Of a stretch of 64,000 nucleotides of DNA, positions 6,403 through 63,726 are shown one piece after another. This stretch comes from Cristatella mucedo (Eukaryota; Bryozoa; Phylactolaemata; Cristatellidae): assembly GCA_009760855.2 (NCBI GenBank), contig WPIO01000349.1, forward strand, positions 1-64,000, written 5' to 3'. Numbering within the stretch: position 1 is the stretch's first letter; each line of letters begins with the position of its first letter. The notes under the pieces were generated by a model. It ran no database searches. It had not been told where the DNA came from and saw only the letters and a program-made list of their open reading frames with translations. The translations under genes and the position numbers were made by a program.

Positions 6403-7808
6403 GTTATTGACGGACGTGGAAACATGATAATTGAGCTGCCAGGTGAAGTTATTCATACCTCACTGACCGTTCTCTCATTGGAAGGCAATCCAATGGTTTT
6501 TCCACCTTGTGAGGTATGTGACCAGGGAATTGAAGCTATTCGGCAGTATTTCCGAGATAGCACTCAGGGGAAGGAATCGCTATGCTGTGCTACTATCAAC
6601 ATGCTTGGAGACACGGGAGCAGGAAAGACTAGCATCGTTCAGTCTTTACTACTTGGCATGCCATCTCTTGCTGGAGCTGATGATAGAACTTGTGTGCTAG
6701 ATCAGAGCCTTGTACAGATTGAAAATCGGATAATAAATGTGAATGACTTTGGTGGGCATGTAATGTATCAAACAGTGATTCCAATATTTTTGCCCTCTAA
6801 AGGACTTTGCATCATTGCGTTCGACATAAGTAAAGACCTTGAGAAGCAGAAGGAGCAGATAAAGAAGTGGCTTATGACAATATTCTCTAAATCAGCCGAG
6901 ATACGAGTTATCGTAGTTGGCACTCACACTGATCTTCTTAAAAAAAACGACCTCAAAAACGCTGCTCAAGATGTGGAGAACTACGTAAAAGAACTTCGTT
7001 TGTCTGCTAAGCGAGAGCTTGAGCTTTACACCAATGCACTTGCTCGTCAGGATTCCTCTGCAGAAAATGTTGATGTCTGCCTTAAACAATCTTATGCTGC
7101 GATGTCAGCTGCTGACATTTCGTTCATAATGATGAGGTGCATTAATAATCCTGAAAGTGGTGGAAGTGATGAGAGTGAAAGTAGCCTGAGTAAGTTGAAA
7201 TCAGGAGTCCAAGAGAAGCTTAAGGCCACTGTACAATATCCTGCATCATGGTGTAGTATTATGAAAGACATAACGAAGCGTGATTCAGACGATGGAAACC
7301 GTCAGCCATATTTAGAATGGCAGCAGGTCAGAGAAGTGTATGCAAGGTACTTGCAACCGGAGCCCGACGATTCTACACTAAAAGTAATCCTTCGTTCTCT
7401 TGCATCTGTATCCCAGATTATTTGGTTAGAGAGTTCTCCTTCTCTTATAGGCTTTGTATTCCATCAACCTCAGCTTATCATCAGAGAGTTAAAGAAGGTT
7501 TTGCATCACAACCATCCTGATGCACTTCGTAGTTGTGTTGGCACTCAGTTTTACGGCAGCTGTATTAAGGAGTACAATCGCGGCATTCTGACTGAGACAC
7601 TTTTGGAAGCACTGCTTGGAAGCGGAAACATCGTCGATGTGGTCGGAAAATTCATGCAACAGTTTCACATGATCAGCAGGGTTTGTGCAGTTGGCGAGAA
7701 ACGATACATAATGCCAAGTAAGCTTTCAGACGATCGGCCTACTAAGCTGCAGCAGTTACTAAGTACATCGACAATGGATCCTCCAGTGTTATTCGAGCTT
7801 ACCTTTTT

Positions 7809-7815
7809 GGGGGGG
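7809..7815 (+). other. Frameshift at G homopolymer in the COR domain
   Basis: Seven consecutive G bases mark the point where COR homology moves from the frame of the ATG at 6424 to another frame. One more base in the run (or two fewer) would keep one frame. Such runs are prone both to slippage and to sequencing error. Confidence 0.75.
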
Positions 7816-7949
7816 AGTGTATGCCACATGCTTTCTTTCCAACTCTCCTAGCATCAGTACTATCATTTGTCTACAATAGTAAAGCCGAACCAATATCTTG
7901 GAAGGATGGAATACTGGTCGAACTCTACAGTGTGACTGTAATCATGCTG

Positions 7950-7952
7950 TGA
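7950..7952 (+). other. In-frame TGA within COR
   Basis: In the frame used after the G run, VELYSVTVIML is followed by TGA, then NVSALEIMAFSKSATKDVW without further stops. Both sides look like continuous COR sequence, so TGA interrupts the domain rather than ending it. Confidence 0.7.
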
Positions 7953-8618
7953 AACGTAAGCGCTTTAGAAATTATGGCATTTTCAAAATCTGCCACGAAA
8001 GATGTCTGGAAAGGTTTGCAACCACTGCTCATTCACGTCGTCGAATGTGTAGCAGAGTCGTGGCATGGTGTCCAGCCGCTTTGTAAGCTCATCTGCCCTC
8101 GATCAAGAGGCACCGATAGGCCCCAGCCGTGGGTGAAATTTCATGGCCGAACTGTGGCCTGGAATGATCTGGTCAAGCGCGAGCTCTCCAGGACTGAGCT
8201 GCAGCACTCGTCTGATTGGCATTGCCAAGACTGCAACGATGACATACCTGGATTCTGGATGTTTCCAAGGCAGCCAGGTATGATCGAATCATCAGTGTAA
8301 TCTTAAGCCACTTGTACCCTTCATCGTGCACAGTTACATGCTAATAAGGCAAGTCATGCACGTTCACTTTAATCAAGAGATACTACAAGATTGGAAGAAA
8401 TATAGAAATGCTAACGCCAATTAGAATTGCAAAAGAGCCATCCGGATGCTTAATAATTTTTTATTTTTGTTGCTATGTTGATGAAATATTTTATTGAGAG
8501 CCGGTACTGTAGCTAGTGAGAAATTAAGAGGCAGATTAGTACCACTTTCCTGCTCTATACTCTTTTAAAAATTGTAGTGACAACAATTGTTGCATGACAG
8601 CTTGTTAGCGATCGCTTG

Positions 8619-8734
8619 AAGCTTAGAACAACAAATTTCCTAAGCTTCGCGCCAGTATTACTTAGTAGGCTTAGTTAAGCTTAGAACAACAAATTTTTTA
8701 AGCTTCGTGCCAGTATTACTTAATAGGCTTAGTT
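8619..8734 (+). repeat. Tandem pair of 58-bp units with internal hairpins
   Basis: Two nearly identical units (8619-8676 and 8677-8734) each contain AAGCTTAGAACAACAAATTT followed by TAAGCTT. Each unit can therefore fold on AAGCTTA/TAAGCTT arms. It lies in the intron after the ROCO main exon. No function is apparent. Confidence 0.85.
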
Positions 8735-8958
8735 AATGTACCTTTTATAAAATTGATGTAATGACAACTGTATAGCATAATATATGCAGGCAGTTACTAT
8801 AAAATCGCCATTACCTAATTTCTCATAAAGGTTTAAAATTATTGCTGACTGCATTTTGCCTGGACTTAGTGTCCTGTTTTTTTAATTGTGATCCAGCCTT
8901 GCCCGATAGTAACATTTTTTGGTTTCGAGCAGGTTTATTTTAGGTGAAACTACACTAT

Positions 8959-9042
8959 ACACATGCACACTCTCACACCCACACACACTCACACACACTC
9001 ACACACAGGCGTGCACACAAACACACGCACACATGCACACAT
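8959..9042 (+). repeat. CA-rich imperfect microsatellite
   Basis: CACA-rich DNA with TC, TG and GC interruptions, in the intron between 8278 and 9482. Confidence 0.8.
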
Positions 9043-9094
9043 ACCAATCACATAATATTTGCACTTCTTACGCTAAATGAAAAATAAATAAATG

Positions 9095-9252
9095 ATTAAA
9101 CAGCCTCTTTTTGTATAGCGACAGTAGAGCCTTTACGGCTATCACCACCGCTTGCAGTGGCAATAAAGAATCGCCCACAGCAGGAATCGAACCCACGACC
9201 TCGCGACTGAGGTCGTGAAAGCAACCGCCTTACCTAGTGTGCCATCACGGCT
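9095..9252 (-). mobile_element. tRNA-derived SINE (S2), antisense
   Basis: On the minus strand the head reads GGCACACTAGGTAAGGCGG, resembling a pol III box A, and then GGTCGTGGGTTCGATTCC, resembling box B. The body (TTTATTGCCACTGCAAGCGG) is shared with the copies near 63250 and 63860. The three dispersed copies with different flanks argue for a SINE rather than a tRNA gene. Confidence 0.8.
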
Positions 9253-9482
9253 CACCAAAGCTAAAATCAACCAGCTCTTCTTTTTCTGGGATGATAGTTA
9301 CCAGTAGTTTCGTTTCTCTACTGGGAATTGCACTGACGCCTTGTAGCTGCAAAAGATCTCATTTAAAATTATTTGTTGAGGCTGATTGCAAAGAACTGAA
9401 GGGTGAACCTTTGCTACCATCAGCATTCCTTCTAATGTGTTTTACAAAACTCCGTGACTGGGTCACTTAATGCTGCTATCAG

Positions 9483-9560
9483 ACGATTACCAACTTCTCT
9501 TTGAAGGCTCCTGCTCACACCAGGACTTTCGGGATGCAGAGAATTACCTCAAACGACTAG
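9483..9560 (+). CDS. ROCO gene, linker exon 2 (predicted)
   Basis: This 78-base exon is inferred from an acceptor (CTGCTATCAG, AG at 9481-9482) and a donor (CTAG|GTAAAG). Its frame reads DYQLLFEGSCSHQDFRDAEN then YLKRL. Both boundaries are phase 1, matching the preceding donor at 8277 and the following acceptor at 9723, so the frame runs from COR into the next linker exon. The sequence has no recognised domain. The acceptor lacks a strong pyrimidine tract, so this is the least certain exon of the model. Confidence 0.55.
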   Translation, partial: TITNFSLKAPAHTRTFGMQRITSND

Positions 9561-9723
9561 GTAAAGGCAATCTGTGTAAGCGGCTTGACGGTCGTAAGAT
9601 CATCGTTAGACTCACATGGCTCAATCTAAAGTCTCTTCTTTTTACTGCAGCTAACTTACCTTGCCCTTCCTCTTTGACGCGATGTGATTGTATTGAATCG
9701 CTGTGCTTCCTTCTTTCTTTCAG

Positions 9724-9813
9724 GTAATGAGGGCAAACCTGCTGCCCTACTGCCTGGTGCCAGCAGCGACCCACCAGCTTTATTGGAAGCACCTACGAAG
9801 AGGTCCTCGGAAG
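9724..9813 (+). CDS. ROCO gene, linker exon 3 (proline/alanine-rich)
   Basis: The exon follows a good acceptor (TTCTTTCTTTCAG) and ends at a strong donor (GAAG|GTAAGC). It encodes NEGKPAALLPGASS, then DPPALLEAPTKRSSE, a flexible-looking linker between COR and CARD. It is phase 1 at both ends and 90 bases long. A 90-base counterpart at 48831-48920 keeps the frame and donor but has lost the acceptor AG, which supports this being a real exon. Confidence 0.75.
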
Positions 9814-10028
9814 GTAAGCTTGATGATCCGTGAAGGCACACTGGGGAGGGTGGTTTCTTTTTACGAGCTTTTTTAGAGCCTAATGAGGTGGTACTCAGCC
9901 TGCCCATAGGCCGGGCTGAGTGGTGTCAGTCCGGCTGGGGCAGAGCATTGTGGGCATGGTCACGCCCAAAATATCTCCATCTTCGTCATTTCGAACTCGC
10001 GATTTGATTATATCCATTACTCTGTAAA

Positions 10029-10130
10029 AAACAATAATAATACTGCACTTGATAAATCGCCCTCAGAGAACTCAATCTCTTTCTAGGCGCTTTACATTTG
10101 CTGCAAAGGGAAACACGATTGAATGATGAG
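10029..10130 (-). mobile_element. LINE-B 3'-tail fragment, antisense
   Basis: On the plus strand it reads AATAATAATACTGCACTTGA, then AAATCGCCCTCAGAGAACTC and TCTTTCTAGGCGCTTTACAT, the LINE-B tail reversed. Only the last ~100 bases of the element are present. Confidence 0.85.
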
Positions 10131-10248
10131 TAATATCACTAGTCAACAATGGCCGCTGCTATCAGTGCCCACTCTAGAAACGGCAGCCACTTCTCAAATC
10201 TAAATGCTTGGTAAATAGCCTGTAACCCTTCACAATCGGTAAGCTCGT

Positions 10249-10365
10249 TTAATTTGTAATTTGGCAGTAATTTGTATAATTTGACAGTAATTTGTGACTT
10301 AACATGAAGAAAATGCTAATAATTGCTCCGACTACTAAAAGCAGTGCAATTTTTCTGTAAAACAT
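10249..10365 (-). pseudogene. Type II membrane-anchor exon relic (copy 1)
   Basis: On the minus strand an ATG at 10365 opens MFYRKIALLLVVGAIISIFF then MLSHKLLSNY, ending at a stop at 10249 after 38 residues. A short basic start followed by about 20 hydrophobic residues is typical of an uncleaved signal anchor, as in Golgi glycosyltransferases or sulfotransferases. The catalytic part is absent, so the family is unknown. Homology to 52488-52740 extends over about 10195-10445. LINE-A is inserted right beside it at 10443. Confidence 0.55.
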
Positions 10366-12028
10366 GCTTCTTTACGATTCTATGATCAGGGAAATGCTAA
10401 CTACATGGCACAAGCTACTTGAGATAGAGCAGGGGCAGCACAATGTAATGTAATGTAATGTAATGTATCTCCGTCAGTAACTCCAAAAAGTCATAAAGAC
10501 CATGTGGGTGTTACGCAGGAGAGTTTTGTATAGCACACTCACAGCCTAAGCGGCTTTCGGTACGCATTCGGTAGCCAACAGACTTCGTCTCACGCAACAA
10601 AGAGAAAGTGGGAAGCATAGCAGAGTTAGGAGAGCAGTTGAGGTAGTGAGTAGCATAGAAGTAGCAGTTCAGGACCGCTGAAAAACATGTGCCATAGTCG
10701 GCAGTCGGAGAGTAAATGTCGTTGCGTAAGAATTGTGGAAGCGAGTTCCACAGTCTAGGACCTGCAGAGCTAAAGCATCTGTCGCCAACTGTCTTTAAGC
10801 GGAGGAATGGGACAGCTAATTTATTGTCCACACAGGACCTGAGGGCGCGAACAGGCTGAAACTGATGCAGCAGTTCAGCTAGGTACGAAGGAGCCAAGCC
10901 GTGGCGGGCCTTATGGGTCAGCGTAAGAACTTTGCTCTGTATCCTTTGCTCAACCAGCAACCATCCTAGCTCTTTCAGCAAAGGTGACACGTGCTCAAAC
11001 CGCTGGGACTTGAAGGCCAGCCTTGCAGCCATATTCATAGTCCGCTGTAGTGGCATAATAGCTTTCTTTAGTAGACCAGCCAAAATGGAATTACGATAAT
11101 CAAGCCGAGACAGAACTAAAGAGCTAGTTAAATTTTTTACAATCCACTGTGGGAGACAGCTTCTAATCTTGGATAGGGATCGGATGTGATGGCTAGCTGT
11201 AGAGGCAGTCTTCTGAATGAAGCTTTTGAAATTGAGGCAGCTGTCGAACACGGCACCTAGATTACGAGCACGTGGTGAAGGTCGCACAATAGCATCACCT
11301 ATTAGAACAGCAAAGCCTTTTAACCCAGCAACACGCTTAGGGTGTCCTATGAGAAGCAGTTCGGTTTTATCGTCATTTAATTTCAGGAAGTTTTCCGACA
11401 TCCAGGATCGAATATCGGCAAGGCAAGCATTCAGTTTCTCAGTTGCTGCAGCAGATTCCGACGGTTTAAATGACAAATACAACTGAGTATCGTCAGCATA
11501 GAAGTGATATCCTATTCCATGGGCCTTAATCACTTTTCCCAGAGGTTGCGTATAAATGGAGAACAGCAAGGGACCAAGTACAGACCCTTGAGGGACTCCA
11601 CAGCTGACCCTTCTCATGTCTGAGACCTGACCCCCACACGACACGGATTGAGTACGATCAGACAAGTATGATTTAAACCACGCCAGTGCTTCGTCTGCCA
11701 GACCGATCCTTGTTCTCAGTCGTTCAAGCAAAACTTCGTGATCAATGGCGTCGAAGGCAGCAGACAGATCTAGCAGAGCTAGGGCAGTGACATTCCCGTC
11801 GTCGTTGCCACGTAGAATGTCATTGTTAACACGGAGGAGAGCAGTTTCAGTAGAGTGCTGCCTCTTGAACCCTGATTGAAATGTTTCTGACGTTCCATTA
11901 TTTTCAATATGTTCAACTAGCTGCTTAGCAACAATTTTTTCAAGAATTTTTGATAAGAATGGAAGAAGGGAAACTGGACGATAGTTTGCTAGGACCTCTG
12001 TGCCTAATCCAGGCTTTTTAAGAATAGG

Positions 12029-12031
12029 TCA
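12029..12031 (-). other. Single premature TGA in LINE-A ORF2
   Basis: TGA falls between PKSFKSAII and PILKKPGLG, inside the conserved start of the reverse-transcriptase domain. The same frame stays open on both sides, so this is the only stop in about 3.2 kb. Confidence 0.85.
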
Positions 12032-13650
12032 AATGATTGCCGATTTGAAGGACTTGGGGACGACCCCTTTTCCCAAAGAAACATTAAAAATCTTGGTTAT
12101 GGCAGGGCTAAGTTGGTCTGCAAGTGAAGACCACAGAGATGAAGGTATAGGGTCTTCAGGAGACGAGCTTTTTTTGCTAGACCCCTTTAAGGCAGCCACA
12201 TCACAGGCAGAAACATCAGAGAACCTTTTAAGAAAGGTCACAGGTCGAGGAACGGCGATTGCTTTGTTCGGAGGGGGCTTAACGGAGGCACGAATGTGCA
12301 CAATGTTTTCAGTAAAGAAGGCTGAAAACTTTTCGGCTGAGCCCTTAATATCTGGGGAGTCAGACCTGACAGCATTGGCCAGTAAATGGTTTACTGTCTT
12401 ATAAATCTGTTTAGTGTCCGACTGGCAGGAATTCAGTTTTCTAATGAAAAAAGAAGCCCTGGCTTTTTTAAGCTTTCGTGTGTAAACTCGAAGGAAGTCT
12501 TTAAAATTGACTAGGTCTGCCTCAGACCCCAATTTCTTGAAACGACGTTCCAGCCTGCGCTTAACACGGCGCATCTTAAGGAGCTTTTTTGTAAATTGAA
12601 AGCAATCTCGACGACTTTGAACACGGATAGAGCGAACGGGAGCATGCTTGTCAAGAGCACTCCTGAGTGTCATGTTCATCGCATCTGTGAGGGTATCGAG
12701 GCTGCCGGTCGAGTCTGAATGCAGATCAAGAAGGCCTGCATCACAAACAGATTTCAAAAACTTGTCCATGTCAATGCTTTGTAAGTTACGTCGTTTGGCA
12801 AATTTGACATTGCCCTGCACGTACGAGGGAGCAGGAACAGTAAACGAGACCGAACAATGATCTGAGAGGGTCAGTGGGCACACCACAAAGTCAGTGATGA
12901 GGACATCCTTAGTGATCACGAGATCTAGAATGTTGCCACCGACGTGGGTGCTATGATTAACGTGTTGGGCCAAACCAAGATTCTCCAGACATTCAAGAAA
13001 TGAGCGGACCTGACTGTTGCTAGGGTTGTCAACGTGAATAGTGAAGTCTCCTACAATCAGTAGCGGCCTTTCACACACAAATATTTTAGCGAGGAACTCT
13101 GAAAACTCCTCTATAAACAAGTTTAGACAGCCAGAAGGAGGCCGGTATATCACAACGGTGAGAGGCATTGTCTTCTTTGAAGACCTGATAGCAACCGATT
13201 CAAACGATGACCCATGCGAGAAACTGCACATTTTATAGCCAAACGATTCGCGAACAACAATTGCAACCCCGCCACCAACCTTGTCAGAATGCATGGACTG
13301 ATAGAATGAGAACTTGGGTGGGGTGGTCTCGGAAAAACAGCTACTGGAACAAGGCGTCATCCAGGTTTCGGTAAGCAGAAATGCATCTAGCTTCTCCTGG
13401 ACCACCTGATCGCGGATAAGTAACCCCTTGGTTTTTAGCGAGCGGACATTTAGTAGGCGGAATTTAAGAGGCTGTCCAACAACTGGGCGACGGCGATGAA
13501 GTGGCTCGTATTCTCTACCGTTTGCGTCCGGCCCGGCGGACGCTGGCTCTTCGAATTTGAATTGAACCTTTGTAACAGCCGTGGGATGACGTTTCACAAC
13601 GTGCTGGGCTACAGCGGGTGGACACAAACCAATCGGTTTGTGTGTTTGGA

Positions 13651-13689
<39 letters not shown>

Positions 13690-13694
13690 TGTGC
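13651..13694. repeat. GT microsatellite at the LINE-A 5' end
   Basis: A near-perfect (GT)n run on the plus strand. On the minus strand it is read as a His-Thr repeat at the start of the LINE-A frame. Confidence 0.9.
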
Positions 13695-13719
13695 GCGAGC
13701 ACACTCAGGCATACTTGAG

Positions 13720-14434
13720 CTTGCTTGAGTTGCTACCTATTTGTCCTAAACTAGTTAATAGATAAAGCCTATTACTGAATTCTGCCATTTTTCAGTATTG
13801 GCATTGTCGTTCTCGTGATTAGGTGTAGGAAGTGTTTGGTACATTTCAACTTGCCTGACGTTTTTTTTTTGGTTTTTGCCCCCTCAAACATCTTAACGGG
13901 GACTGCTCAGTGCAATGCCACGGAAATCAGCATCGTTAGCTTTATAATCGAAGTAGTTATAACGCTACGTGAAATGTTTTAAATCCTAGTTCAACTAAAT
14001 CTTAATACCGACGATTTGAAACTCCATGCTACCATAAGGAATGAATGGCAAGCATTCAGTCTATCATGCCTACAAAAACCTGCCAAAGAGAAAACATCAA
14101 ACCTGTCCTAGCTCAAGTTATATTGCTGCCGCTCAAACTAATGAATGTGACATGTCCACTGTCTGTAGCCTCTAGCTATTACTTTATCAGTGTCCGGTTC
14201 TCATCCGGTCGCCAGTACGTTAGTGAATGCCCCACCTCCCCACATGTCGAAGAATCTATTGAAACTGGCGGGTCATATACTTGCACCCTCGCAAGTTAAG
14301 TAGTTATGATAAGGCTACTAATATTCTGCACTAATTAGTCTATGCCGTCACAATAGCCGATCAAAATATCGACTAGCTGTCATCCTCGCTGTCGATTGGC
14401 TTCAAGCTGGTCAACGTCGCCCTTCTGTGAATCC
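13720..14434. other. Unassigned intronic DNA
   Basis: No feature is recognised between the two antisense LINE-A copies. The open frame at 14045-14299 carries no known motif. The position is within the predicted intron 9814-16890. Confidence 0.4.
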
Positions 14435-14435
14435 T

Positions 14436-15508
14436 ATGTAATGTAATGTTATGTAATATATCTCCGTCTGTAACTCCACAAAGTTATAAAGACTATGTGG
14501 GTGTTACGCAGGAGAGTTTTGCATAGCCCACTCACAGCCTAAGCGGCTTTCGGTACGCATTCGGTAGCCAACAGACTTCGTCTCACGCAACAAAGAGAAA
14601 GTGGGAAGCATAGCAGAGTCAGGAGAGCAGTTGAGGTAGTGAGTACCATAGAAGTAGCAGCTCAGAACCGCTGAAAAGGATGTGCAATAATCGGCAGTAG
14701 GAGAGTAGTTATCGCTGCGTAAGAATTGTGGAAGCGAGTTCCACAGTCTAGGACCTGCAGAGCTAAAGCTTCTGTCACCAAATGTCTTTAAGCGGAGGAA
14801 TGGGACAGCTAATTTATTGTCCACACAGGACCTGAGGGCTCGAACAGGCTGAAACTGATGCAGCAGTTCAGCTAGGTATGAAGGAGCCAAGCCGTGGCTG
14901 GCCTTGTGGGTCAGTGTAAGTACTTTGCTCTGTATCCTTTGCTCAACCGGCAACCATCCTAGCTCCTTCAGCAAAGGAGACACGTGATCAAACCGCTGGG
15001 ACTTGAAGACCAGCCTTGCAGCCATATTCATTGTCCACTGTAGTGGCATAATAGCTTTTTTGGTAGCCCAGCCAAAAGGGAATTACAATAATCAAGCCGA
15101 GACAGAACTAGAGAGCTAGTTAAGTTTTTTACAAGCCACTGTGGGGGACAGCTCCTAATCTTGGACAGGGATCGGATGTGATGGCTAGCTGTAGAGGCAG
15201 TCTTCTGAATGAAGATTTTGAAATTGAGGCAGCTGTCGAACACGACACCTAACTTTCGAGCAAGTGGTGATGGCAGCACAATAGCATCACCTATTAGAAC
15301 GGCAAAGCCTTTTAATCTAGCCACAAGCTTAGGGTGTCCTATGAGCAGCAGTTCGGTTTTATTATCATTTAATTTCAGGAAGTTTTCCGACATCCAGGAT
15401 CGAATATCGGCAAGGCAAGCATTCAGTTTCTCTGTTGCTGCAGCAGATTCCAACGGTTTGAATGACAAATACAACTGAGTATCGTCAGCATAGAAGTGAT
15501 ATCCTATC
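14436..15508 (-). mobile_element. LINE-A copy, 5' truncated
   Basis: The minus strand reads [20 protein letters not shown] (from about 15505) through [20 protein letters not shown] to the C-terminus LGCEWAMQNSPA. One frame change near 15040 splits the open reading into 15028-15505 and 14504-15049. The ATGTA-like tail is at 14436-14460. The 5' end falls just upstream of YADD. Confidence 0.9.
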
Positions 15509-15826
15509 CTACTGGCTAGCATGCTGCTCTTGCTGTAGCTCCCCAGGGGGCACTGCTCTCCATGCACAGATCCTGCTGGCTCGCCGTTTGCAGGTGTTAA
15601 CTTTCCTCTATCTAGCAATTTTATGTGCCAACAATTTTGCCAAGCTTGCAATACGCTACTAAGGACATGCAGACGCATTCATATAGCACCGGCAAGCGAT
15701 CAGAGCATGTATTCAGGGCCTTCTCTCCACGAAGCAACTGTCTTGCAGAAGCACAGCTTGAGTAAACCATCAACTCAAGCAGTCGGCCAAATGTCGGCAA
15801 GCAGCTTATCGTGTTAAGTTTATTTG
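15509..15826. other. Unassigned intronic DNA
   Basis: Short stretch between a LINE-A 5' end and a LINE-B 3' end; nothing recognised. Confidence 0.4.
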
Positions 15827-16340
15827 ATATTGGTAATAATACATTAGTATGTTGCCCTTAACGAAATTAATCGCTTTCTAGGCACTTTGCATGTGCTGCA
15901 AAGGTAGCATAATCGAGTGGTAAGTGGCTGCACTCTTAATGTCAACATGATAACATATGTAGAGGTGACATGCACATGGTCACCATGCAAAACTGGTTAG
16001 TGGCAGCATGCTCAGTAGAAGCACCCATAAGCACCGAAAGCAAGAATCATGAGGAGCCAATAAATGCTGCGATAATCAGATGCTTGTTAAGGTTTAATGG
16101 CATCAAGTCAGATGATGTAGTAATGTCAGTAGGGAGTGTGAATACCGTGTTTTGGAAGCATGCAAACTAAGGGCAGGGTCTTCACAGAATTTGAGATTTG
16201 TATGAGGTTGACTACACGATTTGATTCAGAAAAGTTGGTGGTATGATGCCTATCATGGTGGAGGATTAGGTCTGATAGCTAGGCTGGAGCGAGAGAATGG
16301 AGTGGCCTAAAAGTGACTTACGGAACCGTGAAATCGATGC
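15827..16340 (-). mobile_element. LINE-B copy, 5' truncated and decayed
   Basis: The plus strand shows the reversed LINE-B tail (TCGCTTTCTAGGCACTTTGC), the UTR (GGTGACATGCACATGGTCAC) and reversed fragments of the reverse-transcriptase C-terminus up to about 16340. No open frame survives. Confidence 0.75.
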
Positions 16341-16690
16341 TCTGCTAAACTGTGCCAGCCTGGGAGATGCGCAAGCCTGGGAGATGTGTGTTTCGCGATA
16401 CGCAGATTTCTGATCATTAGGAGGACGGCAGACACTGTAGACTGAATGTGACTGGCATGTGATAAGTTAGAAGAATTTGGTAATATTCTACCTGCTTCTG
16501 GCATTCATTTCTGTACTGTGGTTTGAAAGCCTAGCTTTTTTTTTATTTTAGTTCATGATTTGATTAATCAGTATGTGGCTCATCGCGAAACTGTAATATA
16601 ATTCATTCCCACTGCAGTTACTTACCAGTAGCTATTATCAAGGATTAAAGAACAGCTTGGTTAATCTTAGAGTTGGACCAACAGAGAAAA

Positions 16691-16737
16691 ATAGGTTGGA
16701 TCAATATATAATTCATTTATATATTGATCAAACCTAT
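16691..16737. repeat. Near-perfect palindrome (21-nt arms, 5-nt loop)
   Basis: ATAGGTTGGATCAATATATA and its reverse complement flank a TTCAT loop with one mismatch. The flanks hold an imperfect direct repeat (GTTGGACCAACAGAGAA and GTTGGATCAACAGAGAA). It could be a small MITE or a cruciform-prone site. It lies about 150 bases before the CARD exon. Confidence 0.8.
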
Positions 16738-16890
16738 TCGTATCTGTTTATCCGACTCGGTTGGATCAACAGAGAATAATGACTCACCTATAAATAGGTT
16801 CACCAATTTTTTGACTGCTATAGTACACCATGTATTAAACTTTCCAACCGCGTTTAAAGTTGACTGGCGGCTTCCGTTCTTTGTTTGCAG

Positions 16891-17072
16891 ATGATGGTTC
16901 TGCTAGACGGGAATGCTCCGCCGAAAGCAGCAAGCAAAGTGACCTGAAAAAGCGATTCATAAAAGTGAGGTCGATGTTGATTGCTGCGTTAGATACATCG
17001 GTCGTTCTTCAGGCTCTAGACAGTCTCTATGGTGATGGAATCGTTACGGAGGTTGAAAAGCAAAATATTCAG
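16891..17072 (+). CDS. ROCO gene, exon 4: N-terminal half of CARD
   Basis: CARD domains are six-helix death-fold modules that mediate CARD-CARD interactions in apoptosis and immune signalling. After the acceptor TTCTTTGTTTGCAG the exon reads DDGSARRECSAESSKQSDL, then KKRFIKVRSMLIAALD and VLQALDSLYGDGIVTEVEK. This fits the CARD pattern of a charged first helix, a leucine-rich second helix and the G-(I/V)-(L/V)-T-x-x-(E/D) turn. It starts in phase 1, completing the codon left by 9813, and ends in phase 0 at CAG|GTAAGC. The preceding intron (9814-16890) is about 7 kb, largely filled by repeats. Confidence 0.8.
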
Positions 17073-17759
17073 GTAAGCCGTCAAGACAGTGTCGTGTGCC
17101 GATCTGAGACGGAAAAATACTAATATCTGATTTAGCTGCCCCCTTTATCTCGTATCTGAACAGCCTCATCAGTTAACTAGCAGCTGCAACAAAATAACTT
17201 GCCTGCTGCTTCACTCGAAAGTTTAGGTGGCTTTGTAGGCAGTGCATCACAGGTAGCCTACAACAGGTAGCTGTTTAAAGCTTTTTTCCTGCCAGCTACC
17301 AACCGTCGACATTATTGCCTGTTGTTTTAGAAATTAAAAACCATAATTTTTTCATTTTTATTTCGAAGTGCATGCTAATATTTCTCGCCTCGGTGTAAAA
17401 TGAAGCATCGTCAAATTCACTCTTACTTATACTATTGCTGCTTAGAATACAAGTTTTGCTTTTAGGACATCAGAGAGAATATCTCTAGATGTCTACCTTA
17501 ACGCCCTTATATTTGCATCATGATTGTAGTTACAGAGTCGTTGCAGTAGTTGAGAGCTTTATATTGCTTTCATAGCAAGTAAGCAGGATTGTCTAGCTTG
17601 CCGATAGTTTAGCTGTGGCTGCTAGCCGGACTTGGGACAAGCCCAGATCCTTCAAATATGCGATTCATTTGTATACGGCCCACGCCCACACTTGAACTGG
17701 CAGTTTTAAAATGAGATGCAATATTTTTGTTGTCGAGCAGATCTCGTGGCTTAAAAACA

Positions 17760-19254
17760 AATAGTAAGTTCCAGTCTGGCTTTAGAGCTAATCAATCCAC
17801 AGAGTCAGCATTGCTTCGGGTATACAACGACCTACTTAGGAATGCAGACATGGGTAGAGTGTCTCTGCTTGTTTTGCTTGATCTTTTGGCAGCTTTTGAT
17901 ACCATCGATCACAAAGTTCTTCTAGAGCGCCTCTCATCTCGCCTGGGCATCACTGGCACTGCTCTGCAGTGGTTCAGGTCCTATCTCAGTGGGAGACTCC
18001 AGAGTATTGATGTGAATGGACAAAGATCATCTGAAGTACCTCTGAAATATGGAGTACCTCAGGGCTCAGTGCTAGGTCCGATTCTTTTCACGGTTTATAC
18101 TCTGCCTCTTGCTGATGTGATTGCCAAGCACAATCTAGGCTTTCACTTCTATGCGGATGACACTTAGTTGTACCTTTGCTTTGATCCCTCCCAGCCTTCA
18201 AGCACCTCAAATTCTCTAAACTCACTAGCTCCATGCATTGATGACATCTGCACATGGATGGCTGCAAATTTTCTAAAACCTAACGATGATAAAACTAACT
18301 TACTAGTTATGGGAAAACCCAGTGTGATCCAGAGATTGGAAAGGCTGACTCTCAAAATTGGCTCTGCCAGCATATCTCCAGTTGAATCAGCTCGAAATCT
18401 AGGTGTCATATTCCAAAGCGACCTCTCGTTAGACGTTCATGTCAGCTCCACAGTCAAATCCGCCTACTTTCAGCTTCATAACATTGCTAAAATTCGGGCT
18501 TGTTTAGATAAAGATACCACGTCCAAGTTGGTCCATGCATTCGTGACATCCTGTCTCAACTTCTGCAACTCACTACTTACTGGCCTACCAGCATGTGCGA
18601 TCAGGCGATTGCAGCTGGTGCAAAACTCTGCAGCTAGGCTTGTCTGTCGTGAGCGTCGCAGTTGCCACATTACTCCACTTCTCGCTGACCTGCACTGGCT
18701 ACCAGTCAAGCAACGGATTGACTTCAAGGTTTTGTCGCTCACTTTTAGGTCCCTTCATTCTATGGCTCCAGCCTATCTGTCAGATATACTACCCCATCAG
18801 GCTAAGCATCGTACCACCTGCTTTTCGGAATCCAACAGTCTAGAAATACCTCGTACAAACCTTAAATCCTTTGGAGACCGTGCATTTAGTTCATATTCTC
18901 CCAAAGCCTGGAACTCCCTCCTGACCTGCGTCAGAACATCCCCTGACCTGACCACATTTAAAAGGAACCTAAAAACACACCTATTTAGGCCAGCATTTAG
19001 TGGGTCCCTGTGATTCATCCTTGATGTGCTTATGCGTGCTGACAGTGTGCATGCTGCCACTAACCACATTTGCATGCTGACCCTGTGCATGTCACCCCTA
19101 ACCATATTATTCATTTCGTTTGTTTTTCAAGCATGATTTTGCTTACCATTCAATTGCATTTCACTTTACAGCAAACGTAAAGCGCCTAGAGAGAGATTAA
19201 GTTCTCTGAGGGTGCTTTATCAAGTGAATTATTATTATTATTATTATTGTTAGG
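17760..19254 (+). mobile_element. LINE-B, longest reverse-transcriptase copy
   Basis: The frame reads [51 protein letters not shown] and FHFYADDT, then TAG (18165-18167), then LYLCFD and 281 more codons to SGSL at 19013. The stop probably replaces a CAG ([10 protein letters not shown] in LINE-A). The element is truncated at its 5' end inside the reverse transcriptase. It ends with a UTR, an AAGCGCC/GGTGCTTT hairpin and an ATT-repeat tail (about 19228-19252). It sits in sense in the intron that splits the CARD. Confidence 0.9.
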
Positions 19255-19587
19255 TAATTTATTGCCAGGGAGGCAGATAACTATTTTTCGTGAGCATAAC
19301 ACTATCCAAGTTGTATGCGGTACATGCTAAATCAAGCTTCGCTTCTTTACGAAGTGGACCGATTACGGTAAAATTGTATTATGAAAGCGACAATTTATTC
19401 ATAAAAGTTGAACTTATTGGTTTGTGCCTATAGAATTCTCTTACAGTGGCCACGCATTGCAAGCCCTTGTATGATGCAAGTGAGCTCGTGATTGCATATG
19501 GCTACTGATTTGAGAGTTAACGGTAGAAAACAAAAGTTTGAAGCCATGAAGCTCAGACAGCAAAGACCCCGGCTCGCAGCGTATTGC

Positions 19588-19692
19588 ATGTTAATAATAA
19601 TAATAATAATGCACTTGATAAAGCGCCCTCAGAGAACTCATTCTCTTTCTAGGCGCTTAACATATGCTGCAAAAGGAAATTCAATTGAATTG
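19588..19692 (-). mobile_element. LINE-B 3'-tail fragment, antisense
   Basis: Reversed tail: an AAT run, then TGCACTTGATAAAGCGCCCT and CTCTTTCTAGGCGCTTAACA. It lies about 110 bases before the last CARD exon. Confidence 0.85.
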
Positions 19693-19804
19693 TATGTTAC
19701 TAGTTGTGTGAAAATTGATCGATAGAACTTTGTTGTGAATTTGTATAAGCTATGTGAAACATAGTCCTGCTCAATGAACACATTTCGGAGCCTATTTTTT
19801 CTAG

Positions 19805-19969
19805 GCAAAGGCGGAGAGAAATATTCAAATAGATACGGCAAGGTGCTTTATCGACGTCATTGAGTCTCGTGGCGATAATGCGATTCGGGCTTTTGTTGCG
19901 TCTCTGGAGTCTAAATACATCCAAAGAACAGATCTGGCTCAAGATCTGAGAAATTTAGAGTTGTCGTAG
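19805..19969 (+). CDS. ROCO gene, terminal exon 5: C-terminal half of CARD and stop
   Basis: The acceptor TTTTTTCTAG (AG at 19803-19804) is followed by a phase-0 exon reading AKAERNIQID, TARCFIDVIESRGDNAIRAF, VASLESKYIQRTDLAQDL and stop TAG at 19967-19969. It supplies the second half of the CARD begun at 16891: the dxARxFIDvIxxRGxxAxxxF signature, where CARD helices 4 and 5 meet. The frame joins exactly. The intron (17073-19804) carries a 1.5-kb sense LINE-B. I see no domain after the CARD, so it is the protein C-terminus. Confidence 0.8.
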   Translation, partial: AKAERNIQIDTARCFIDVIESRGDNAIRAFVASLESKYIQRTDLAQDLRNLELS

Positions 19970-29429: not shown

Positions 29430-30051
29430 TGGTCTACCGTACCAGCAACGAACCAGCACCGTCGAGCGGCGCTGGCGGTCGGGCTCGGCTGCAACCGCAC
29501 GCTGCTGTGCCTGAGCCTGCGAAACAACTCGCTCGGACCGCGCGGCTGCACGCGCCTCTTCGCGGCGCTCGCCGGCGGCGGCGGCTGCCGCATGGCAAGC
29601 ATCGACGTGACGACCCAGAATCTCGTGCTCGACGAGAGCGGTAACAAGCTCGCTCGCCGCCATGCTGGCGGCGAGCGAGCGCGTTACGGCCATGGTGGCG
29701 GCAAGCGCCGGCATACGTGCTGCACGGCATGCGAGGCATGCCGGCATGCGAGAGCTTCACGCCGACGGCTGCGGCGTGACGGCGGCCGGCTGCGTGGCGC
29801 TCAGCGCCGCTCTGCTTGCCGCCGACGCGGGCGAGACGTCGTCGCCGCTGCGAAAGCTGTTGCTCAGCAACAAGACGATCTCTGACGACGGCCTGAGCTG
29901 CCTGAGCGAGGCGCTCGCCGGCGGCCGCGGCAGCCTTCGCACTCTGCATGTCGACCTGTGCGACGACTCAGCGGAGGCTCTGGCAGGACCTTTGTGTGCA
30001 CCCTGCTGCATACGAACGAGCGCTCGCTCGAGGTGCTCAGCGCCTGCTACT
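29430..30051 (+). pseudogene. Ribonuclease-inhibitor-type LRR gene relic
   Basis: RI-type leucine-rich repeats form solenoids used for recognition, for example in NLR proteins. The first part reads LLCLSLRNNSLGPRGCTRLF and CRMASIDVT. After a frame change near 29645 the next reads MRELHADGCGVTAAGCVALS, LRKLLLSNKTISDDGLSCLS and LRTLHVDLCDD. After a second change near 29990 it ends ERSLEVLSACY and stop. At least four repeats follow the LxxLxLxxNxL(x)nGxxxLxxAL pattern. Frame breaks make it a pseudogene or a badly read gene. It is much more GC-rich than the ROCO exons, so the two are not obviously parts of one gene. No NACHT or CARD part is seen nearby. Confidence 0.7.
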
Positions 30052-30182
30052 GATGTATCCTGGCTGTTGCTGCAGCATCTTTGTGGGCAAATAATAACAG
30101 CTCGGCAATGCCATTGCCTTAGGATCTCAGTCGGCGGCGGGGTCGGTGGGTACAAAGTGTTGTCTGCTGCCCCCCCCCCCCC

Positions 30183-30290
30183 CGGTACGACCCAGAGGTA
30201 ACGTGCTTGCCTTTAACGATCAAGGTCGTCGGCTCGATCCCTGCGTCATATGAAAAGCATCTAGATGGAGATTGAGTTGCGTAAAAAAAA
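30183..30290 (+). mobile_element. tRNA-derived SINE (S1), sense
   Basis: A tRNA-like head (GACCCAGAGGTAACGTGCTT and AAGGTCGTCGGCTCGATCCC) is followed by a LINE-B-like tail (AAAGCATCTAGATGGAGATT, GAGTTGCG) and an A run. Confidence 0.65.
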
Positions 30291-48769: not shown

Positions 48770-48925
48770 CCTTGTCCTCCCTCTTTTATGTGATGCGATT
48801 GTTGGATTCGCTGTGATTTCCATCTTTTGGGTAATGAGGGCAAACCTGCTGCCCTACTTACCTGTGCCAGCATCGACCTACCAGCCCCATTGCCAGGACC
48901 TAAGAAGAGGTTATCGGAAGGTAAG
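48770..48925 (+). pseudogene. Decayed duplicate of ROCO linker exon 3 and its flanks
   Basis: The segment aligns with 9655-9820, including the upstream intron (GATGCGATTGTTGGATTCGC). The exon counterpart at 48831-48920 is also 90 bases, keeps the frame (NEGKPAALLTCASID, LPAPLPGPKKRLSE) and the donor GAAG|GTAAGC. The acceptor CAG has become TTG, so it could not be spliced as in the parent. A LINE-A is inserted immediately after. It marks a second, broken ROCO-like locus. Confidence 0.8.
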
Positions 48926-54643: not shown

Positions 54644-56395
54644 GTTTAAACAGGACGTTAAACTCGCTTTAAGCTTAGCATCAGGATGTTGGTAAGCCCA
54701 ACCTCCTTTGCAAGCCACTTGTTCCTTTGGACCTATACCATTCACCAGTGCTAAGTAGCTTGTGATTGAGCGAAGCTGTCAGTGCTTTGGAGTGGCTTGG
54801 GTTTGGTAAATATCCATCTAAGTATCGCCCGCGTGGTGTTTGCTAACTGACGAAAAGGAGAGACTTTCTGGCAGATTTATCGCATTGACCTTTAACCACT
54901 GTTGACACAGTGGTTTCGCCACAAATTATGGCAAGGGAGCAGTGCCCACAGAGGTTTATCGTGGTATCGGACATTTCGGAAGCAGTTATCTCCAAGCAGA
55001 GGGGCCTACTCTGGCCCAAGGGCACAAACGAGTGGCGGCTTTACAAGCCAGCCCGTCTCGTTAACTGTCGAGGCTGAATAGGCCTTGAGCAGTTTTATGA
55101 AACTCCTATGACGATCCAAGCTTTGAGTGATGTTCAAGTATGAAAGTGTGCCAATCATCATCTCTTTCGAAGACAGACAAGAACTCGACGCGAACGGAAG
55201 CAGCAAGCCTTCTTATGCATCTTGGCTCGACGCGGTGACTCAGCGATTCAAAACTTTTTAGAAGTTCGCGAATCAAAAGAGGTTGGCAAGTCGGAGCTGG
55301 CCGCCCACGTGCGTAACAGGGCAGCTCATGGAGCACTCTGGTGCTGTGCTTTACGCAAGTCACTCATTTGAAAACGGCATTGGCACTTCCACCTCCTTCC
55401 TGCTGGCAGCTGCTTTTTAATCTCATAAACCTGTTTTATAAATAAAAATCCTGCTATTACCGGCTGACTTTATGGTAAATATTTATATTTATTTAAATAT
55501 AAAATATGGTTTATAAAGTTTCTACCCTAGGGTGTGTCATGGCAACTACGCTGGCTTTGGAGAGCTACTTTAAAGCTACGTTCATAGAAGTACACCGTTG
55601 CTGCGATACAACTTTCCTTGCTGCATTGTCATATGCATCCACAAAGCTACTTTAGTGAGCATGTGTTCACTCCATTGATATTCACTCAAGTGTCCTTCTG
55701 AATCAGTGATAACCCGATGAAGCACAAATAATATTCGATTCCACCGTTGCTGCTTTATTGCCGAGAGAAGGCAACGCTTCCGCTCCCTTGCGGATGTGCT
55801 TTCGGGCGTTATCAAAAATCACTTCAGGCTTCTGGCCGTCATTAGGAATCACGGTGTAGCTGTATAAGTCCTGGCTATGATTAGCATTCATTAAGCGCCA
55901 AGCAGTTCTAATCTAGCTGAATTTTTAGACAGGTCAATGCTCCTGCCCTCTCAGACTCGGCTGACTCGTTCGTGGCTAAGATGAGATGGTTCAGGTTAAG
56001 TGCTTCCGAGTAATGTACTGTCGAGCTGACCTAATCTGTTCAAACAGCGGCAGTGCAACATGAATAGTTTGTGTCTGCTGATACTGGATTCACTTTTAGC
56101 ATCGACGTAGGCATTTACTGTTTCTGGCTGACATGCAGCCTGTGGCGACTTAATTTTGCAGTTAATTTATGGATACTTATGATAAGGCGACATTCTAGAT
56201 TGAACTACTTTCAAAAATCGAAAAAAAGGATGCTGCCGTTGAGCGAGCCGTTATTCTGTTAGATATGCATGTATCGCAAGCTTTTTGTAACTCGAGTGAG
56301 GGGTGAGCCAGGACTAGGCGATCGAGGCAAAAAGACGAAGCATCAGAAGATCAGGTCTGAGTAGCATCCTGCATCCTGCAAAAAAAAACGAATAG
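54644..56395. other. Unassigned DNA
   Basis: Minus-strand frames at 55703-55891 (DLYSYTVIPNDGQKPEVIF) and 54843-55025 look mildly protein-like but belong to no family I know. No exon chain could be built. A short TA-rich repeat ends the stretch (56400-56450). Confidence 0.3.
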
Positions 56396-63495: not shown

Positions 63496-63726
63496 ATGGA
63501 GGCTAATCTTCCGAAAGATGCGACCTCTGACCTATCTGATAAGAGACTTGACAGAATACCGGACACCTTGCTGGTGGATGCCTCATCACGTTTGGAGTTG
63601 GATTTGAGTAAGATCAGGGATATTAATTTTGCTCAGGACCTTCGGCAGTTTGTGAATGTTATACGACTGTCTCTACAAGGCTGTGGACTGTCTGAGCTGC
63701 CAGCTAGGCTGTCTGATCTTACAAAG
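63496..63726 (+). CDS. First coding exon of an LRR protein (possible second ROCO-type gene), partial
   Basis: ATG at 63496 (context AGAAATGG) opens 77 codons ending at a strong donor ACAAAG|GTAAGT (63726/63727), phase 0. The peptide starts MEANLPKDATSDLSDKRLDR and continues IPDTLLVDASSRLELDLSKI, VIRLSLQGCGLSELPARLSD. LSLQGCGLSELPARLSDLT fits the LxLxxCxLxxLPxxLxxLx pattern of LRRs, and DLSDKRLDRIP a degenerate repeat before it. The protein seems to begin directly with LRRs, without a signal peptide, so it is probably intracellular. The rest lies beyond the window. Given the ROCO gene on the same strand, a paralogous LRR-Roc-COR gene is a reasonable guess. Confidence 0.65.

Follow-up and report, generated by a model that had tools for sequence, protein, structure and literature searches.

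The window (the whole 64,000-nucleotide stretch of Cristatella mucedo contig WPIO01000349.1 that we analysed, called C276 where contigs are compared) probably holds the 3′ portion of a gene from an animal family that has been amplified in tandem and encodes LRR-Roc-COR-linker-CARD proteins, in which CARD clustering would be under GTPase control. Units of this family stand in tandem, and the predicted architecture, from an LRR end through Roc and a COR-like region to linkers and a CARD, finds good support in the five loci at which it recurs. As assembled, the window copy cannot encode a full-length protein; related loci have intact Roc-COR exons.

Exon layout and domains of the window gene

Between positions 6403 and 19969 on the plus strand, we found in order an exon for the Roc GTPase, two short linker exons and a CARD that is split over two exons and closes with a stop codon. 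The open part of the Roc-COR exon (6403..7848) comprises the last LRR (about 6403-6594), the Roc domain (6595-6933) and a COR-A-like region (7240-7719). The remainder of this exon (7849..8277), traced from open reading frames and tblastn pieces, is interrupted in the window copy and is followed by a conserved splice donor after 8277. Linker exon 1 (9483..9560, 26 codons) and linker exon 2 (9724..9813, 30 codons) are both of phase 1-1, and they precede CARD exon 1 (16891..17072) and CARD exon 2, which includes the stop codon (19805..19969). All four junctions have GT/AG ends and compatible phases, in agreement with the phase-compatible linkers proposed in the first-pass annotation. The gap of about 7 kb that leads up to CARD exon 1 is rich in repeats, and reverse-transcriptase reading frames were identified in the introns by eye, without a profile.

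The Roc GTPase proposed in that annotation is borne out by a Pfam match to PF08477 (E = 1.3e-11, 45.2 bits against a cut-off of 27). The nearest solved structure is the Roc domain of LRRK2 (E = 1.6e-12), and the residues of the P-loop, DFGG and THxD motifs are invariant in all seven aligned copies. Roc and Ras were the GTPase families matched by the window gene in Pfam, with no NACHT match at E ≤ 10. A COR-A match (PF16095) lies after Roc, where COR would be expected in a ROCO protein, but scores 14.9 bits in the window, under the cut-off of 35.3; three of six relatives score 15.3-19.2 bits, again under that cut-off, and the other three have no match at E ≤ 1. The exons after COR are the two linkers and the CARD with its stop, and no kinase match was found in the pieces scanned.

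The two joined CARD exons match PF00619 at 36.7 bits (E = 4.2e-9, cut-off 23.9), so the two-exon CARD ending in a stop that had been read from the sequence stands up to a profile search. No Death-domain model matched the C-terminal region at E ≤ 10 in Pfam; the match there is to CARD. A genome-wide Pfam search for CARD, run exon by exon, returned seven places; the window locus was absent from these because each of its CARD exons alone is too short to score.

The last LRR was read by eye within the window exon. Since the contig begins at the first base of the window, any 5′ LRR exons fall outside it; the sister copy on C107 has an LRR exon a short way upstream of the stretch that matches the window (LRR_4, 27.9 bits against a cut-off of 27), consistent with the LRR end suggested earlier.

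Recurrence and tandem arrangement

We found the same exon order on four further contigs (C107, C245, C214 and C263), which makes five loci with the window and is more than chance would give. Four of the five are near-identical and one of the four contigs is an older paralogue, so they amount to about two independent cases. CARD exon 2 has 10 matches at nine places in the genome, window included, and at five of the nine a Roc exon lies 12.1-13.4 kb away on the same strand; CARD exon 1 matches C214, C107, C245, C263 and, twice, C167. Linker exon 1 shows no difference in C107 and C245; in C263 it is 73% identical and has lost its acceptor AG. Linker exon 2 is identical in C107, C245 and C214 and 77% identical in C263, where its splice sites are present.

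The remaining four CARD exon 2 places have no Roc exon at the 12.1-13.4 kb spacing. The Roc exon on C128 is 55 kb from CARD exon 2, that on C167 is on the opposite strand, and none was among the matches listed near CARD exon 2 on C173 and C624. Linkers and CARD were also sought in the 6.3 kb after the Roc exon of C193, and none were found. Related Roc exons in the genome were grouped into 32 places, 16 of them with long open frames.

Tandem spacing is seen downstream as well. The first exon of the next copy (63496..63726, plus strand), which has an ATG, LRR-like sequence and a GT donor, matches 22 times in the genome and lies 42.6-45.9 kb beyond CARD exon 2 on four contigs. No Pfam family matched this exon at E ≤ 1.

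Frame breaks, selection and alternative readings

The earlier proposal that Roc and COR share a single exon fits the relatives, in which the Roc-COR exon is open in one frame, with COR detected only below threshold by profile. It does not fit the window copy, which does not stay open as a single frame as far as 8277: a stop stands at 7849-7851, and the other frame, followed from about 7788, has its own stop at 7950-7952. Likewise, the proposed ROCO gene ending in a CARD is upheld as a recurring order of exons, but the copy in which it was first read has frame breaks; it could be a pseudogene, a defective allele or sequence that was poorly polished.

These breaks raise the question of whether the window copy, or the entire CARD-tailed subgroup, consists of decaying pseudogenes that make no working protein, a reading we consider unlikely though still to be reckoned with. 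Frames are also broken, at other positions, in the Roc exons of C245 and C214 and in CARD exon 2 of C107, both CARD exon 1 matches on C167 contain stops, and the exons of these copies are no freer of indels than their introns. On the other hand, the Roc-COR exon is open in C107 and C263, and the CARD exons of C263 are open except for the last codons, CARD exon 2 having a shifted end there. The breaks vary among near-identical contigs and several fall within single-base runs, which sequence error would also explain. Selection points the same way for Roc-COR, with a dN/dS of 0.43 for C107 against C276 (p = 0.028) and 0.27-0.65 in all pairs compared, a recent trio (C193, C128 and C167) excepted. 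Between C276 and C263, the linker and CARD exons differ at 57 of 514 sites and the flanks at 374 of 2267 (p = 0.0019), and the CARD exons alone also differ less than the flanks (40 of 346 sites, p = 0.018). The dN/dS of the CARD is 0.61, not significantly below 1 (p = 0.22), and that of linker exon 2 is 2.56, from eight changes only. Within the recent trio dN/dS is 1.03-1.20, yet no segment was significantly above 1 when tested segment by segment, and we do not claim positive selection.

We consider it improbable that Roc-COR and CARD exons form two adjacent genes, with the ROCO protein stopping a few codons past the donor and the CARD on a separate transcript. A stop does occur within about 40 codons past the donor in all eight family copies whose open frame was followed there, which leaves room for a short terminal exon, and the joining, read from genomic DNA, has to span the long (7 kb), repeat-filled gap before CARD exon 1. 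However, the donor (CCAG|GTA) is conserved in 10 of 10 aligned copies while the sequence beyond it diverges, the phases match at every junction, and order, strand and spacing are preserved at the five loci, with the same caveat of about two independent cases. Furthermore, the listing of open reading frames gives no Met ahead of CARD exon 1 in its own frame, so this exon requires one upstream. Far less probable still is that the CARD arises by chance, as a helical match in the translation of non-coding DNA. The domain is split across two short exons and its structure matches are weak (RAIDD CARD, the best, at E = 0.022; ICEBERG at E = 0.11), but its Pfam score is well over the cut-off, and C263 has corresponding exons with splice sites, a protein 77-78% identical and an indel-free exon 1, on which grounds we rejected a chance match. 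A single gene, with the CARD as the C terminus of a ROCO protein, is our preferred reading.

Predicted function and relation to known proteins

The most likely function of such a protein is that of an intracellular sensor in which a GTPase switch would govern CARD clustering, and an inflammasome-type role is plausible as a prediction. The LRRs would respond to a ligand or to a state of damage, upon which the Roc-COR GTPase would shift its nucleotide state and its monomer-dimer form; cycling of Roc-COR between monomer and dimer with nucleotide is described in passages of PMC6337361 and PMC11052575. This shift could expose or cluster the C-terminal CARD, which might then nucleate a CARD assembly that takes in a caspase or adaptor with a CARD of its own. 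Overall, the protein would resemble a NOD-like receptor or APAF1 in its action, Roc-COR standing in for NACHT or NB-ARC.

NOD-like receptors and APAF1 combine sensor repeats, an NTPase switch and a CARD in one protein; theirs are a NACHT or NB-ARC ATPase and an N-terminal CARD, whereas the window family has a Roc-COR GTPase and a C-terminal CARD. DAPK1, which carries a kinase, is likewise a ROCO protein with a C-terminal death-fold domain. This is a death domain, and DAPK1 is without LRR in the relevant passage of PMC6337361, whereas the window family has a CARD and LRRs. MFHAS1 and other LRR-Roc-COR proteins share the order of LRRs followed by Roc-COR with no kinase found; MFHAS1 is LRR and Roc-COR only in another passage of PMC6337361, whereas a CARD follows in the window family. 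In LRRK2 and LRRK1, COR is followed by a kinase and WD40 instead of a CARD. The Aplysia TIR-ROCO and sea-anemone LRR-ROC-COR-TIR proteins, as excerpted from PMC9334734 and PMC5094078, also join a ROCO core to an immune-signalling domain in invertebrates, with TIR where the window family has CARD.

The pairing of a Roc-COR GTPase with a CARD is not itself new, which weakens the novelty implied by the first-pass annotation: in the portion of PMC4104024 on Trichoplax, CARD and death domains are among the predicted products of at least 17 ROCO genes. Both animals thus have Roc-COR and CARD in the same predicted protein set and multiple ROCO genes. The family described here differs from that of the placozoan, as far as this portion goes and domain order in Trichoplax aside, in its C-terminal CARD, its tandem units and a bilaterian-type mitochondrial code. 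COX1 scored highest under codes that read AAA as Lys and AGA/AGG as something other than Arg (table 13, 504.9 bits; table 5, 503.7; table 9, 488.1; table 4, 482.1). Such code usage fits a bilaterian invertebrate, perhaps even a tunicate, and speaks against a sponge, cnidarian or placozoan. Among the matches listed in a full-text literature search, judged mostly from the listings, there was no bilaterian with an LRR-ROCO-CARD family in tandem. A contig scan for a bacterial relative with two short peptide patterns from the family alignment, a weak search, matched 36 stretches, none of which was confirmed.

In LRRK2, how the Roc-COR switch is coupled to output has yet to be settled, and a natural Roc-COR protein with a CARD output, scorable by filaments or specks, would make it directly testable. 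If so, the sensors in which repeats are coupled to death-fold assembly would gain a GTPase-based class. We tentatively suggest that the family may be a fast-evolving, tandemly amplified analogue of the NOD-like receptors, with LRR sensing, a GTP-controlled dimer change and CARD nucleation, and Roc-COR in the place of NACHT, and that it may signal to the CARD-caspase proteins of this genome. Two of these CARD-caspase proteins have Ser at the position expected for the catalytic Cys.

A CARD-tailed Roc-COR gene model in the window

We translated the region, read its DNA and scanned separate pieces against Pfam, with the two frames of the large exon searched apart. The Roc domain proposed in the first-pass annotation was recovered in the large exon (6403-8277, +; PF08477, E 1.3e-11, 45.2 bits against a cut-off of 27), and the profile search it had called for matched the two joined CARD exons (16891-17072 and 19805-19969, +) to PF00619 (E 4.2e-9, 36.7 bits against a cut-off of 23.9). 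Among solved structures, the first match to this CARD was the RAIDD CARD, a weak one (E 0.022). All four junctions (8277/9483, 9560/9724, 9813/16891 and 17072/19805) have GT and AG ends. In the DNA, the codon is split after its first base at the three junctions before the CARD and the last junction falls between codons; thus, frames fit at all four.

The proposal that Roc and COR share one exon held for Roc but not for a single open frame: the frame with the P-loop and THTD stays open from 6403 until the stop codon at 7849-7851, and the remainder of the exon is read in a second frame, itself interrupted by a stop at 7950-7952 before it continues to 8276. The position of the predicted COR fits, but its profile fell below cut-off (14.9 bits in the window). 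Sub-threshold scores of 15.3-19.2 bits were also found in three of six intact relatives, and a Pfam scan did not list COR at E<=1 in the other three. The backing for this putative COR consists of its position and these sub-threshold profile matches. As for the claimed LRR end, the last LRR was recognized in the window by reading the sequence, and the remaining LRR exons precede the start of the contig. In the near-identical contig C107, an upstream LRR exon (L054 4162-4320) scored 27.9 bits for LRR_4 against a cut-off of 27.

Splicing is suggested by CARD exon 1, which has no Met ahead in its frame in the translated region and thus needs an upstream exon. Furthermore, the Roc-COR exon ends in CCAG/GTA, invariant in 10/10 aligned copies while the sequence downstream diverges, a pattern typical of a donor. 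Against the splicing model, the copy on contig C263 has lost the acceptor AG of linker exon 1, and the end of its CARD exon 2 is shifted. Linker exon 1 consists of whole codons, so its skipping would preserve the frame. Between linker exons 1 and 2, the C263 gene also holds a degenerate second Roc-COR exon (L048 1240-2819, C263:42740-44319), 35-55% identical and with frame breaks.

The exon order recurs as a gene family

Each CARD exon was used as a query against the 572 Mb genome, in which contig C276, the carrier of the window, spans 74,652 bases. CARD exon 2 gave 10 matches at 9 places and CARD exon 1 gave 7. A Roc exon followed by linker exons (9483-9560 and 9724-9813, +, in the window) and CARD exons on one strand was found on five contigs (C276, C107, C245, C214 and C263), with 12.1-13.4 kb between the Roc exon and CARD exon 2. 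The four remaining CARD exon 2 places fit more poorly: on C128 the Roc exon is 55 kb off on the same strand, on C167 it is on the opposite strand and CARD exon 1 holds stops, and on C173 and C624 no Roc exon was among the matches listed.

C276, C107, C245 and C214 are 94-99% identical in long alignments across introns and exons and have repeat insertions in common, with C107 declining to 77-91% further upstream. These four are recent duplicates or unmerged haplotypes; a single diploid animal would not have as many as four haplotypes. C263 is an older relative (DNA about 80-87% alike around the linkers and CARD and 78% around the Roc exon; CARD protein 77-78% identical), and the five loci thus represent roughly two independent cases. 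When the genome was searched with the Pfam CARD model, 7 other places and none from this family were listed, because single CARD exons are too short to score. The LRR-Roc-(COR)-linker-CARD architecture is well supported, and is of more interest as a family than as the window's gene. By eye, the introns hold reverse-transcriptase-like LINE ORFs and remnants at 10511-13732 (-), 14504-15678 (-) and 17715-19013 (+), and such ORFs are common to the near-identical copies. On C276 beyond the window, an ORF resembling a Maverick/Polinton-type integrase was seen by eye (L050 7652-8587, -).

The Roc exon had 53 matches, grouped into 32 places (omitting three short LRR-end-only matches on C634, C80 and, as a second match, C114). 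At 16 of the 32, an open frame of at least 590 codons was present, one with a stop inside the match. The exon at 63496-63726 (+), which has an ATG and a GT donor, is the putative first exon of the following copy. It had 22 matches in the genome and lies upstream of a same-strand Roc exon on seven contigs (C107, C150, C148, C550, C49, C256 and C660). On four contigs it follows the CARD exon at 42.6-45.9 kb, which indicates head-to-tail repeated units. Should the first exon at C107:286548 be part of the CARD gene ending near 372645, the gene would span about 86 kb.

Frame breaks and divergence among copies

The window's copy is broken as assembled. The near-identical copies do not share their breaks, which fall in COR for the window, in CARD exon 2 for C107, in both the Roc exon and CARD exon 1 for C245, and in the Roc exon and at the CARD exon 2 acceptor for C214. 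Indels were about as frequent in exons as elsewhere (C107, 2 in 2388 exon bases versus 15 in 14016 others; C245, 4 in 2384 versus 22 in 15215; C214, compared parts, 7 in 2203 versus 46 in 9788). Either relaxed constraint or inadequate polishing of multi-copy contigs would fit this pattern. The Roc-COR exon is intact in C107, C263, C193, C256, C128, C150, C167, C550 and C90.

Between C276 and C263, 57/514 sites differ in linker and CARD exons versus 374/2267 in flanks (Fisher p 0.0019), and 40/346 in CARD exons alone (p 0.018). CARD dN/dS (0.61) did not fall significantly below 1 (p 0.22); on few changes, linker exon 1 gave 0.80 and linker exon 2 gave 2.56. Roc-COR values were 0.27-0.65 across comparisons, apart from those among the recent trio C193, C128 and C167 (1.03-1.20). 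No segment was significantly above 1, and our claim is thus of rapid evolution rather than positive selection. Between C276 and C263, synonymous divergence was 0.56 for Roc-COR versus 0.16-0.19 for CARD exons, which suggests that the two gene halves have different histories, e.g., through exchange between copies.

Possible function and relation to known ROCO proteins

CARDs are assembled by homotypic contacts, and RAIDD pairs with caspase-2. The parts of the gene and their order are observed, and from here we infer a sensing and clustering mechanism: LRR sensing would alter the Roc-COR state, and the altered state would cluster the CARD. In Roc-COR proteins, monomer-dimer cycling is described as tracking nucleotide state (PMC6337361, PMC11052575). 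Two CARD-caspase genes in the genome, each one open frame, are candidate partners of the right kind (L001, C111:11326610-11329840; L002, C518:1848319-1851561), and there are other caspase-like places (30 matches). The best solved relative of L002 is a caspase-2 construct, with Ser aligned to the Cys of QACRG; L001 aligned to L002 has Ser at the same site, the expected position of the catalytic Cys (QACxG). Both are possible CARD pseudo-caspases. The RAIDD-like CARD match and the caspase-2-like L002 may offer a lead towards partners rather than evidence of interaction. Another long open frame (L004, C376:2935324-2938545) encodes a CARD and then ribonuclease-inhibitor-type LRRs (LRR_6), with no NTPase domain among the matches listed.

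The first-pass annotation had implied that a ROCO protein with a CARD was new. The pairing was already predicted from Trichoplax, described as having at least 17 ROCO genes with products whose domains include CARD and death domains (PMC4104024). Among the matches listed in full-text literature there was no bilaterian LRR-ROCO-CARD family. The mitochondrial genetic code of this genome suggests a bilaterian invertebrate. Reported relatives include TIR-ROCO proteins in Aplysia (PMC9334734), LRR-Roc-COR-TIR genes and one gene with kinase, Roc/COR, death and TIR in sea anemones (PMC5094078), and amplified LRR-ROCO candidate immune receptors in brown algae (PMC11378527). The vertebrate ROCO proteins named in one review (PMC6337361) and in one research paper are LRRK1, LRRK2, MFHAS1 and DAPK1. 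A term search found no mention of Roc, COR, Miro or GTPase in a paper on new death-fold combinations in amphioxus (PMC2575513).

Elsewhere in the window, a further CARD-tailed gene appears to have left a remnant: a second linker-2-like stretch at 48830-48922 (+; 71% identical and lacking the acceptor AG) and, at 55144-55368 (+), a stretch resembling CARD exon 2 (39%, tblastn E 5e-5). Between 20 kb and these stretches, no Roc exon was found. A GC-rich segment at 29430-30201, with weak LRR_6 resemblance below cut-off, is possibly a decayed LRR gene.
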